This document shows positions 10,510-49,430 of a stretch of 64,000 bases of DNA, piece after piece (position 1 is the first letter of the stretch; each line of letters begins with the position of its first letter). Source of the DNA: Pseudanabaena galeata CCNP1313. GTDB taxonomy: Bacteria > Cyanobacteriota > Cyanobacteriia > Pseudanabaenales > Pseudanabaenaceae. The position numbers and the translations under genes are program-made. The stretch spans positions 1,426,001 to 1,490,000 of the forward strand of contig NZ_CP112874.1 of the NCBI RefSeq assembly GCF_029910235.1, given 5' to 3'. The notes below the pieces were generated by a model. That model was not told the origin of the DNA. It searched no databases and was given only the letters and a program-made list of their open reading frames with translations.

Positions 10510-10634
10510 ACGTCAGTTCGACAAAAGATGAGATTGGGGCTTGGTCTCCAAGCCCTCTTTCTAACTTAACGCCAGTTCGATATTGCCATTTGCGTCGTGC
10601 TTCGCACGACGCAAATGGCAATATCGAACTCACT
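10510..10634. repeat. Degenerate MITE-like hairpin cluster with IS982-type ends
   Basis: A terminus ACGTCAGTTCGACAAAAG begins at 10510 after TAATTCA, but no matching right end with a duplication is present. A second end ACGCCAGTTCGATAT at 10569 opens a near-perfect palindrome around GCGTCGTGC/GCACGACGC and closes with ATATCGAACTCAC at about 10632. The ends match the IS982 and MITE termini described elsewhere, so this looks like one truncated and one shortened copy. A separate GGGCTTGGTCTCCAAGCCC repeat lies between them. Confidence 0.7.
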
Positions 10635-10671
10635 ATATCTTGCATTGCTATGTGACTTCAGTCATAACAAT

Positions 10672-20851: not shown

Positions 20852-21034
20852 TACCAAAACACAAAATGGCTACGCCATTTTGTGTTTTTAAAACCCTCAC
20901 TGGGTTTGGTTTTCAATGCACAAAAGTGTGGCAACACTTTTGTGCATTGGTATAAAAGTGGCGGTGCGAAGCGCCGCCACTTTTATTGGGTTTTAAAACA
21001 GGTAACGGCTTAGCCATTGTCTGTTTTGGTATTA
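20851..21034. repeat. Cluster of nested palindromes (cloverleaf-like)
   Basis: Inner hairpins: 20856-20888 (AAAACACAAAATGGC...), 20914-20949 (CAATGCACAAAAGTGT...) and 20952-20985 (ATAAAAGTGGCGG...CCGCCACTTTTAT). A looser CAGG..GGCTTAGCC hairpin follows. The outermost arms ATACCAAAACA (20851) and TGTTTTGGTAT (21022-21032) enclose them all. This suggests successive insertion of palindromic elements into one another. It fills most of the 20852-21117 gap. Confidence 0.85.
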
Positions 21035-21432: not shown

Positions 21433-21459
21433 GCAAGTTTTGCTGACCCAAATAAATAA

Positions 21460-21571
21460 ACGTAAGTTCGATATAGCCATTAGCGGCGTGCGAAGCACGC
21501 CGCTAATGGCGAAAGATGGTAAGAATCGCTAAGCGATTCTTACCATCTTTCGCTTTCGTCGAACTGACGTT
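21460..21571. mobile_element. MITE (IS982-type ends), copy B
   Basis: 112-bp element starting ACGTAAGTTCGATATAGCC and ending GTCGAACTGACGT, with two internal hairpins: GCCATTAGCGGCGTGC and its complement, and a GATGGTAAGAATCGCT palindrome. It is flanked by the 7-bp direct repeat TAAATAA (21453-21459 and 21572-21578). It is the same element as that at 49127-49237 in the opposite orientation. It has split a host palindrome, CCCAAATAAATAAAGGCGG and its complement, which is otherwise intact around it. No coding capacity. Confidence 0.85.
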
Positions 21572-21572
21572 A

Positions 21573-21607
21573 AATAAAGGCGGCGCTTCGCGCCGCCTTT
21601 ATTTATT
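21573..21607. terminator. Hairpin at the 3' end of phzF-like gene
   Basis: AAATAAAGGCGGCG...CGCCGCCTTTATTT, the right-hand part of the palindrome disrupted by MITE copy B, overlaps the last codons of the minus-strand gene and could terminate its transcript. Confidence 0.5.
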
Positions 21608-22430
21608 TGGGTTTTATGGTGATCTGACCACGCAAAAAGGTTATGGCTTCACCTTTCAGCAAAACTCTAGTACCGCGATCGCCAACTTGAAGCTCACCAG
21701 TACGTGCTGATAGCTGTTTGGCTTTGAGATCACTTTTACCGAGATGGTTTGCCCAATAGGGGGTGAGACTGCAATGGGCGGAGCCAGTGACTGGATCTTC
21801 AGGAATTCCCGCTTTAGGCGCAAAAAATCGCGACACAAAGTCGTAGGGGCTTTCAGGATCAGCGATCGCCGTAATAATAAATCCAAACCCATCTAATTTG
21901 GCGATAAGGTCAAATTGCGGCTGAAAGTTTTTGACTAGGGATTCCGACTCTAATAATACCGTTAAGTAATCTTCAGCCTGTCCAAGGACTTGATAGGGGT
22001 GATCGCAGAATATTTCTGCTAATACTTGGAGCGATCGCTCTGAGCAAGTTTTATAAAATATAGCGGGAAAATCCATCACAATTAGCTGCTCTTCAAAGCT
22101 AATTGCTAAATCGCCGCTCAATGTGGAGAAAATGAGAGGTAATTGGGGATCAATTACCTCTAGTTCGCGCAAATAATGGGCGATCGCAAGTGTGGCATGA
22201 CCACAGAGCGGTACTTCTTGGGTCGGCGTAAACCATCGCAATTGAAAATGATTTTGTGAAGAATTTTTGTCTAAAGGCTTAACAAATGCGGTTTCTGAGA
22301 GATTCATCTCCGCAGCAATTTGCTGCATTTGAGCATCTTCAGGAAATTGCTCAACCAATGTCGTAGCGGCGGGATTACCGCGAAATGATTGATTAGTAAA
22401 TGCGTCAATAATAGCGATCGATAGTTGCAT
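21603..22430 (-). CDS. PhzF-family isomerase-like protein
   Basis: 275 residues, the length of the PhzF/diaminopimelate-epimerase fold. Seen: IDAFTNQSFRGNPAATTLV near the N-terminus, the catalytic-type glutamate in AAEMNLSETAFV (about 45), FTPTQEVPLCGHATLAIAHYL (about 70-90), and in the second half GFGFIITA, DFVSRFFAPKAGIPEDPVTGSAHCSLTPYWA. The phenazine pathway itself is absent, and most PhzF homologues in other bacteria have no known substrate. The last residues (TIKPK) lie in a repeat hairpin. Confidence 0.9.
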   Translation of the reverse strand: MQLSIAIIDAFTNQSFRGNPAATTLVEQFPEDAQMQQIAAEMNLSETAFVKPLDKNSSQNHFQLRWFTPTQEVPLCGHATLAIAHYLRELEVIDPQLPLIFSTLSGDLAISFEEQLIVMDFPAIFYKTCSERSLQVLAEIFCDHPYQVLGQAEDYLTVLLESESLVKNFQPQFDLIAKLDGFGFIITAIADPESPYDFVSRFFAPKAGIPEDPVTGSAHCSLTPYWANHLGKSDLKAKQLSARTGELQVGDRGTRVLLKGEAITFLRGQITIKPK

Positions 22431-23308: not shown

Positions 23309-23428
23309 AATGTTGCGCCCTCAAGCAGACCCAGATAGTTTATAGCAGTTATGGTTGTCGCCTTACAAGCTAATACCAAAACACAAAATGGCGTAGCCAT
23401 TTAGCTGTCGCCAAACCAAACTAATTGA

Positions 23429-24431
23429 ACGTCAGTTCGACAGAGTAGACAAAAGCAAAAGAAAAGCTGAGACTAGGTTTGACAAACTAAAAGCCTCAGC
23501 AATATGAACAGTATCGTATCGCACTTGGATATCACGCGAATCTTCTGTGAAGTGGATGATTTCTGCGAAAGCTTTGAAAAACACTGGCAAGAGCAACCAA
23601 TGTTGCCATCAATGCAGGGAGAAAGGAAAAGTCGCTCAAGAATGAGGTTGAGTGAAGTGATGACCATCGCGATCGCCTTTCATGGGTCAGGATACAAGAC
23701 CTTCAAAGACTTCTATACCCTAACTGTAATACCGTTTTGGCGGAAAGCTTTTCCCCACTTGGTAAGCTACACCCGCTTTGTGGAGCTAATGCCTTGGACA
23801 ATGATGTTGTTATGTTGCTTTCTGCATACACGCAAAGGCGAAGTGACAGGAATATCATTCATCGACTCCACACCGATCAATGTCTGTGTACCATGCCGTG
23901 CCCATGCCCATAAAGTATTCAAAGGTATGGTCAATTGGGGCAAAAACTCAGTGGGTTGGCACTTTGGCTTCAAGCTACATTTGATTATCAACGACAAAGG
24001 GGAATTGCTTGCCTTCAAGCTCACACCAGCCAATGTTGATGACCGACAACCTGTGCCTGAGATGGCTCAAGACCTCTTTGGTCAATTGTTTGGTGACCGT
24101 GGTTATATCTCCCAAAAGTTGTTTGAGAAGCTCTATGAACAAGGTTTACAACTGATTACTAAGCGCAAGAAAAATATGAAAAACTGTTTGGTCAAGTTGA
24201 TTGACAAGATTTTGCTGCGTAAGCGCGCAATTATTGAGTCCGTCAATGACCAACTCAAAAACATTTCTCAGATTGAGCATTCAAGACATCGCAGTTTTTT
24301 TAATTTTCTTGTCAACCTTTTAGCTGGGTTGGTTGCTTATACATATCGAGAGACTAAACCTGCTTTAGATCTTCTCTTCAAAGGCTTGCCTGCTCTTCCT
24401 CCTGCCATCTTTTAGTGCGTCGAACTCACGT
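23429..24431 (+). mobile_element. IS982-family insertion sequence, complete
   Basis: 1003 bp. It starts ACGTCAGTTCGACAGAG and ends GCGTCGAACTCACGT, giving inverted ends of about 13 bp with one mismatch (ACGT(C/G)AGTTCGAC). A perfect 7-bp target duplication TAATTGA lies at 23422-23428 and 24432-24438. Rejoining the flanks regenerates part of a hairpin whose body (GAGTGGCGGCG...CGCCGCCACTC) is now on the right side. One intact transposase gene inside. Size and ends fit IS982. Confidence 0.92.
23504..24415 (+). CDS. IS982-family transposase
   Basis: 303 residues, full length. Residues fitting the DDE triad: FIDSTPINVC (about 125), LFGDRGYISQKL (about 196) and RAIIESVNDQLKNI (about 245). The motifs HGSGYKTFKDFY and WHFGFKLHLIIN are characteristic of the family. 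Intact frame and intact ends suggest a functional element. It probably also moves the short MITEs with the same ends at 21460-21571 and 49127-49237 (inference). Confidence 0.94.
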   Translation: MNSIVSHLDITRIFCEVDDFCESFEKHWQEQPMLPSMQGERKSRSRMRLSEVMTIAIAFHGSGYKTFKDFYTLTVIPFWRKAFPHLVSYTRFVELMPWTMMLLCCFLHTRKGEVTGISFIDSTPINVCVPCRAHAHKVFKGMVNWGKNSVGWHFGFKLHLIINDKGELLAFKLTPANVDDRQPVPEMAQDLFGQLFGDRGYISQKLFEKLYEQGLQLITKRKKNMKNCLVKLIDKILLRKRAIIESVNDQLKNISQIEHSRHRSFFNFLVNLLAGLVAYTYRETKPALDLLFKGLPALPPAIF

Positions 24432-24518
24432 TAATTGAGTGGCGGCGCTCCGCGCCGCCACTCAATTAGTTTGGTTAGTAATGAGGCGGCGCTCTGCACC
24501 GCCTCATTACTAACCAAA
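24432..24518. repeat. Two adjacent GC-core palindromes after dihydroorotase
   Basis: TAATTGAGTGGCGGCGCTC... (to 24469) and TTGGTTAGTAATGAGGCGGC...GCCTCATTACTAACCAA (24471-24518). The second includes the last codons and stop of the dihydroorotase gene (stop 24510-24512). The first was the target of the IS982 element. Confidence 0.9.
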
Positions 24519-49008: not shown

Positions 49009-49044
49009 CTTATTCTTACAGCAATTACCGATCAAGCGAAACAT

Positions 49045-49093
49045 AAGAAAAAATTAGAAAGCGTTGCTTTGCAACGCTTTCTAATTTTTTCTT
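49045..49093. terminator. Hairpin after pilJ-like gene
   Basis: AAGAAAAAATTAGAAAGCGT pairs with ACGCTTTCTAATTTTTTCTT around the core GCTTTGC, 37 bp after the stop. Strong stem with a T-rich 3' arm, so a probable terminator. The core AAAGCGTTGC/GCAACGCTTT is the same as in the hairpin at 38380. Confidence 0.65.
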
Positions 49094-49126
49094 CGATTGG
49101 GTTTAAGCGTAAAGCATTGTAATTTA

Positions 49127-49237
49127 ACGTCAGTTCGACAAAAGCGAAAAATGGTAAGAATCGCTAAGCGATTCTTACCATTTTTCGCCATTTGCGGCAT
49201 GCGAAGCACGCCGCAAATGGCTATATCGAACTCACGT
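49127..49237. mobile_element. MITE (IS982-type ends), copy C
   Basis: 111 bp, starting ACGTCAGTTCGACAAAAGCG and ending TATATCGAACTCACGT. Internal hairpins AAATGGTAAGAATCGCT/AGCGATTCTTACCATTT and GCCATTTGCGGC...GCCGCAAATGGC. Perfect 7-bp target duplication TAATTTA at 49120-49126 and 49238-49244. The body matches copy B in inverse orientation with scattered base changes. It does not encode protein. A separate AAAACACAAC hairpin follows at 49259-49290. Confidence 0.88.
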
Positions 49238-49430
49238 TAATTTAGTATGAGGGTCTTCAAAACACAACATAGCTTCACCTGTTGTGTTTTAGCATAGCTC
49301 CTTCAAAGCTATAGGCTGAAAATAATAACATTTTTAGAAAAGTAAAACCACACAAACCGCGTCATCTCTTTTCTGAGTTAGCGATCGCTATATACTAAGA
49401 TTTACGCGCCTAAATTACAAATTTCTATTC

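Follow-up and report, generated by a model that had tools for sequence, protein, structure and literature searches.

The window analysed here is a stretch of 64,000 nucleotides (C1:1426001-1490000) from a genome of the genus Pseudanabaena that comprises 5.84 Mb in six contigs (G000). It holds a complete insertion sequence (IS) of the IS982 family, two short hairpin elements with the same ends and the remains of others. Counted from the first letter of the window, the features are:

10510..10535, plus strand: lone left end ACGTCAGTTCGACAAAAGATGAGATT, remainder of the element lost
10569..10635, plus strand: degenerate 67-bp palindromic MITE, with hairpin 2 between two like ends and the duplication gone
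21453..21459, no strand: TAAATAA duplication of MITE 21460, left copy
21460..21570, minus strand: 111-bp MITE, hairpin-2 end first (evidence: ends, duplication, empty site in G012)
21476..21510, no strand: hairpin 2 of MITE 21460, GCCATTAGCGGCGTGC-GAA-GCACGCCGCTAATGGC (read from the sequence)
21509..21553, no strand: hairpin 1 of MITE 21460, GCGAAAGATGGTAAGAATCGC-TAA-GCGATTCTTACCATCTTTCGC (read from the sequence)
21571..21577, no strand: TAAATAA duplication of MITE 21460, right copy, which opens the remaining part of a host palindrome (21571-21611)
23422..23428, no strand: TAATTGA target duplication of the IS, left copy (read from the sequence)
23429..24431, plus strand: complete IS982-family insertion sequence, 1003 bp (evidence: shared ends, TAATTGA duplication, 17 full-length gene copies, empty sites)
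23504..24415, plus strand: transposase of the DDE type, 303 aa (evidence: NCBIfam and Pfam matches, alignment)
24432..24438, no strand: TAATTGA target duplication of the IS, right copy (read from the sequence)
24432..24474, no strand: right-hand portion of the host palindrome that the IS interrupts (CCAAACTAATTGAGTGGCGGCGC-TCC-GCGCCGCCACTCAATTAGTTTGG when rejoined)
49120..49126, no strand: TAATTTA duplication of MITE 49127, left copy
49127..49237, plus strand: 111-bp MITE, hairpin-1 end first, with hairpin 1 at 49144-49188 and hairpin 2 at 49187-49221 (evidence: ends, duplication)
49238..49244, no strand: TAATTTA duplication of MITE 49127, right copy

The IS starts with ACGTCAGTTCGAC and finishes with GTCGAACTCACGT, reading ACGT at both termini, and an earlier note on this DNA was right to describe it as an IS982 copy with a TAATTGA duplication. 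Its transposase scores 256.6 bits against the NCBIfam model transpos_IS982 (NF033520; cutoff 130) and matches Pfam DDE_Tnp_1_3 (2.3e-72) with a complete DDE domain. Candidate catalytic residues are D121, D198 and E245; in an alignment with six relatives, D121 and E245 are invariant and D198 occurs in five of the six. The closest named relative stems from Pseudanabaena mucicola FACHB-723 (94% identity). As described for the family, which is recognised by 5'-AC ends and direct repeats of variable length (PMC7335449), the element of about 1 kb carries one transposase gene between inverted repeats with 5'-AC ends, and its direct repeats vary in length, being mostly of 7 bp with 8 bp occurring too. 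From the wider end consensus AC(N)6T(N)5TT, the T at position 9 is present and the TT at positions 15-16 is absent; this consensus is a majority rule for IS982 ends and no requirement (PMC7335449). Genome-wide, there are 17 full-length transposase genes with 99-100% amino acid identity, besides fragments, and eight aligned IS copies are 98.7-100% identical at the nucleotide level. The element at 23429-24431 is thus apparently a recently active IS982-family insertion sequence.

The 12-bp end ACGTNAGTTCGA occurs 456 times in the genome (232 + 224 exact copies), compared to five times (1 + 4) for a reversed-pattern control. Element statistics were drawn from the directly read stretch C1:1-2400000, equal to 41% of the genome. 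There, 83 of 134 elements, a list that includes one overlapping pair at window 10510, are flanked by perfect duplications of 7-9 bp. Such duplications surround eight of the nine IS copies in the 2.4 Mb (7-8 bp) and 66 of 103 copies of the 111-bp MITE (7-9 bp). Within 1.2 Mb, perfect duplications of at least 7 bp were observed for 47 of 75 elements, whereas random re-pairing of the flanks yielded a mean of 1.6 and a maximum of six in 1000 trials. Given the reversed-pattern and re-pairing controls, the shared ends and duplications are not a product of chance. The genome-wide tabulation of ends and flanking 7-mers, named in the earlier note as the check on its reading, hence turned out in its favour.

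The hairpin elements have the hallmarks of MITEs, i.e., a length below 300 bp, hairpins only, no coding capacity, terminal inverted repeats and a high copy number, with 113 strict-pattern copies of ~111 bp in the genome. Their layout is a left end, hairpin 1 (21-bp arms and a 3-nt loop), hairpin 2 (16-bp arms and a 3-nt loop) and a right end. The two MITEs in the window have the ends, the TAAATAA and TAATTTA duplications and the opposite orientations originally noted, but the first ends at 21570 instead of 21571, and both measure 111 bp. Of the two degenerate copies proposed at 10510-10634, one is a lone left end and the other (10569-10635) is a degenerate copy of a separate 67-bp palindromic form and not of the 111-bp MITE. 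A repeat of ~110 bp at window ~49014-49125, unrelated to the MITE, adjoins the left side of MITE 49127. Its copies are 82-89% identical throughout the genus, and the MITE was inserted at or near its end.

For empty sites, flanks were joined and the genus was searched for unbroken matches over 1000 bp. The IS site is empty in G005 (92%) and G012 (91%), and that of MITE 21460 is empty in G012 (91%), where the target reads TAGATGA. These alignments contain a single target copy and the host palindrome without insertion. No relative in the genus spans the site of MITE 49127. The empty sites imply either insertion after the lineages parted or clean loss in G005 and G012; the perfect duplication in G000 favours insertion as the probable event. 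Across 58 genomes, the strict MITE pattern is confined to Pseudanabaena, where G002 follows G000 with 24 copies, ahead of G012 (n = 6), G022 (n = 4), G005 (n = 2) and G024 (n = 1). As both the MITE sub-type of G002 (GCGCGGCGC stem) and its IS (97% amino acid identity) are its own, the G002 copies point to a putative separate amplification. A looser search adds more diverged copies in G005 and G012, some of them at the same site as in G000. The pairing of IS and MITE is not obligatory, given that G012 and G022 have kept MITEs without an intact close IS and that G023 has eight intact IS copies and no strict-pattern MITE.

The outer 12-14 bp are common to IS and MITE, the left ends agreeing over 14 bp (for most IS copies) and the right ends over 12 bp. 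Further inward, the two are unrelated; the inverted repeat of the IS itself spans ~14 bp with one mismatch. Position 5 is a C at the hairpin-1 end and a G at the hairpin-2 end in 91 of 103 MITEs, the same as at the left and right ends of the IS, and both kinds of element have duplications of 7-9 bp with an edge TA. At C1:2060879-2061999, a MITE lies beside an IS with three copies of TAATCAA around the pair, which indicates that the later insertion took the duplication of the earlier one as its target. Together with the lone IS982 group described below, these observations support the transposase as the candidate mover of the MITEs, as originally proposed, and we infer that the MITEs are mobilised in trans. 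The DDE transposase produced by ~17 intact copies would bind the shared ends (ACGTCAGTTCGA left, ACGTGAGTTCGA right), cut out or copy either the IS or the MITE, with its two gene-free hairpins between the ends, and have it joined to staggered cuts ~7 bp (sometimes 8-9 bp) apart in an AT-rich, mostly intergenic, TA-edged target.

It is highly improbable that a different autonomous element moves the MITEs and that the likeness of their ends to IS982 reflects common ancestry only. The MITEs of G012 and G022, without an intact close relative of the window transposase, would fit such a scenario, as would other IS982 elements (L127, L129; ~52-58% identical) whose ends agree in the outer 11 bases, ACGTNAGTTCG. 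However, no second IS982 transposase group was found in G000, where all 31 transposase matches are at least 68% identical to the window transposase, and the 2.4 Mb yielded no further autonomous element bounded by these ends in a search for paired ends within 5 kb of each other that are flanked by matching duplications. This search returned only the 1003-bp IS, two 226-bp elements, the MITE-plus-IS pair, two short pairs that overlap (147 and 265 bp) and one split MITE. Mobilisation by the IS982 transposase is kept as the probable reading for G000; in species without the window-type IS, the related group of L127 and L129 (52-58% identity, ends ACGTNAGTTCGGG with the outer 11 bases in agreement) could move the same MITEs.

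Two further candidates were rejected. At 1133300, a 1497-bp candidate for another autonomous element proved to be a MITE split by an unrelated IS with its own ends, GGGTGCGACC, and the MITE is no visible internal deletion product of the window IS, as they share no interior sequence beyond the ends. The splitting IS (G000:C1:1133300-1134796) has the ends GGGTGCGACC/GGTCGCACCC and an open frame of 433 aa, and is apparently flanked by an 8-bp duplication, TATCGAAC. The two 226-bp elements (G000:C1:1596755 and 2269292) represent a second MITE type, without hairpins, which shares the ends of the IS982 element and has perfect duplications of 7 bp.

The 83 perfect duplications comprise 70 of 7 bp, 11 of 8 bp and two of 9 bp. 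All 70 duplications of 7 bp have TA as their first or last two bases (53 start and 45 end with TA), while independence predicts ~6 without an edge TA, the probability of none being ~0.002. Position 1 is a T in 65 of them and position 7 an A in 61. The target TAANNNA suggested by the earlier note fits 35 of the 70, but not the other 35, and duplications of 8-9 bp exist as well. A closer description is a target of 7-9 bp that mostly reads T-A-A-W-T-T-A and carries TA at one end or at both. The same duplications of 7-8 bp surround the IS in relatives down to ~52% protein identity (L121-L125, L127, L129, L141). Concerning genomic position, crude ORF calls enclose six of 133 elements. Convergent genes flank 52 elements, compared to 20.9 expected by length, and divergent genes flank 16, compared to 34.9 expected; all of these are approximate counts, as genes were called by longest-ORF choice. 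This bias may be due to targeting or to selection.

MITE 21460 and the IS at 23429 each split a long host palindrome, as would be seen if IS and MITEs targeted palindromes or terminators as such, which we consider unlikely. Insertion sites do fall within hairpin arms of at least 14 bp more often than expected, namely 14 out of 70 versus 6.3 without context matching and 14 out of 66 versus 8.4 in a matched intergenic context (P ~0.02). Yet, the excess shrinks after this matching for gene context and is not significant at arms of at least 16 bp, and the majority of insertions lie outside hairpins. Chance hits are moreover to be expected because the genome is rich in hairpins, with 1110 palindromes with arms of at least 12 bp in 2.4 Mb, whereas 600 kb of first-order random sequence contained no such palindrome. 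The apparent two-fold excess, reduced by context matching, is no more than suggestive of a preference for hairpin targets.

The behaviour of the hairpins inside the MITE was missed in the earlier note. Among 103 copies, loop 2 reads GAA (n = 53), AAA (n = 4), TTC (n = 37) or TTT (n = 9), i.e., two sequences and their exact inversions, while loop 1 reads TAA (n = 74), TTA (n = 23) or TAG (n = 4), with two others. The main orientations of loop 1 and loop 2 are found in all four possible pairings. The arms of hairpin 1 carry 41 matched two-sided changes versus 35 one-sided ones and those of hairpin 2 carry 31 versus 56; matched changes are far above what independent mutation would give, yet they are not always the majority. 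At MITE insertions that are shared between species, loops are inverted in four out of seven hairpins and unflipped in three. The four flips are:

Hairpin 1: TAA at 2312368 in G000, TTA in G005 and G012
Hairpin 2: TTC at 533523 in G000, GAA in G005
Hairpin 2: site at ~1105750, TTC in G005, GAA in G012
Hairpin 1: TTA at ~1832700 in G000, TAA in G012 (aligned orientation)

The in-place sample is small, with ~10 independent hairpins in all. Counting flips on a tree of MITE copies was dropped, as control characters left out of the tree were about as shuffled as the loops. Loop 2 showed 30 changes versus 31 when shuffled, which at first resembled saturation, but the tree carries too little signal.

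Loop inversion extends to host palindromes. In the one that the IS interrupts, the loop is TCC in G000 and its inverse, GGA, in G005. The palindrome after it, GAGGCGGCGCTCTGCACCGCCTC, occurs as its exact reverse complement in both G005 and G012, and further inverted loops occur at 1476557 and 2312287. An automated comparison that included MITE hairpins, in which one locus is counted twice via overlapping loci and the pair L283 may be a different repeat at that site, found 7 out of 11 equal-length loops to be exact inversions, four to be identical and none to differ otherwise, with 19 matched versus 10 one-sided arm changes. A high-copy palindromic repeat family occurs genus-wide, with the core GGCGGCGC-NNN-GCGCCGCC and variable AT-rich arms that often end in TTTGGGTT. 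It is represented in the window at 21447-21611 and 24432-24510, and also at 20960, 60002 and 60886. Hundreds of candidate sites are present per genome, and the copies differ in arms and loops in a matched way.

Both the loop flips and the matched arms would follow if, during DNA replication, the polymerase switched to the opposite hairpin arm and copied it, by which the arms stay matched and the 3-nt loop flips. Template switching gives arm homogenisation and spacer inversion in yeast (PMC8604942), and compensatory changes with loop inversion in RNA genes (PMC8794818); from the sequence patterns, it is the probable mechanism here too. It is distinctly unlikely that the loops instead flip by site-specific recombination, by cruciform cleavage or only during transposition. 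Cutting and rejoining of a cruciform also gives an exact inversion with intact arms, but loops are found flipped in situ at insertions that species have in common, as well as in non-transposon host palindromes, and matched arm changes fit template switching rather than simple inversion. Selection on an RNA hairpin, such as a bidirectional terminator or an mRNA-stabilising stem, is a very unlikely cause of the paired arm changes and loop states. The MITE hairpins are strong, and the excess of elements between convergent genes places them where terminators are useful; however, selection against insertions upstream of genes can yield the same bias. Exact inversions of a 3-nt loop, which account for most of the loop variation in the MITE and recur in host palindromes, are not predicted by RNA selection, and no Rfam family matched in the window.

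Template switching would likewise give rise to the 67-bp palindromic elements, with one end being copied across to the opposite side. Eight complete ones occur in the 2.4 Mb, in addition to the degenerate one in the window; they are near-perfect palindromes with hairpin 2 between like ends, and four have perfect 7-bp duplications. A strict search for symmetric elements of 37-67 bp found nine in G000 and two in G002 (a local sub-type), and G005 has one symmetric element of the 67-bp type with TCAATTA duplications. These forms resemble right halves of the 111-bp MITE that template switching has copied across to the left side, and they may then have been mobilised or converted in place. It is possible, and proposed here only tentatively, that template switching is so frequent in Pseudanabaena that it has scrambled the loop orientation between sister species and built minimal 67-bp transposons that are mobilised by IS982. 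A 37-bp element at G000:C1:2092382-2092418 (L119) consists of a pair of right ends placed back to back (ACGTGAGTTCGATATAGCAGCTATATCGAACTCACGT) and is flanked by a perfect TCTTTTA duplication; it is either what a deletion has left behind or a mobile unit of extremely small size.

Taken together, a recently active IS982 element, its 111-bp MITE partners and template switching in the hairpins form a joint reading that we hold to be very likely, with the shared ends, duplications, copy number, empty sites and, between species, loop inversion at the same insertion and paired arm changes as its directly observed basis. A genus with an apparently active IS982 element, more than 100 matching MITEs and clear target rules makes trans mobilisation by a little-studied family directly testable. 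In addition, more than 100 copies of two hairpins amount to a natural replicate experiment for the rates of loop flipping and arm matching, while template switching is usually inferred from single loci. Paired arm changes in such repeats are, by themselves, no evidence for a functional RNA.

To describe the locus as an autonomous/non-autonomous pair in a cyanobacterium, as was done at first, is fair, but an IS982-MITE pair is not new in kind since one has been published for Cardinium cOegib, in which ISCca4 (IS982 family) is accompanied by 169 copies of MITECca01 (PMC9769881). In the literature searched, the coverage of which is incomplete, no report was found of an IS982 MITE in cyanobacteria or of loop flipping across a MITE family. 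The interest lies in the testable system and the flipping hairpins more than in the IS-MITE pairing itself. Both the Cardinium and the Pseudanabaena system combine an intact IS982 parent with a high-copy, mostly intergenic MITE that has the inverted repeats in common with it (PMC9769881). MITECca01, however, measures ~240 bp and has extra parent sequence by its left repeat, whereas the Pseudanabaena MITE, of 111 bp, has only the ends in common with its parent and contains two near-perfect hairpins. With ISNsp1 of Nostoc and the IS982 family in general, the IS shares a size of ~1 kb, one DDE transposase of ~300 aa, AC ends and direct repeats of variable length (PMC7335449). It differs from them in its repeat of ~14 bp with one mismatch and in the absence of the consensus TT. 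Nezha and other cyanobacterial MITEs presumably have a different parent family, ends and host. They resemble the Pseudanabaena MITE in being short non-autonomous elements of cyanobacteria (cited in PMC10969869). As for the hairpins, exact spacer inversion with arms kept identical is likewise known from yeast genes and from rRNA and microRNA hairpins (PMC8604942, PMC8794818), and small hairpin-associated inversions of this kind are reported from chloroplast genomes. Pseudanabaena differs in that a dispersed MITE family and intergenic palindromes are affected, and in the high apparent frequency of the inversions between species that are ~90-96% identical at the loci.
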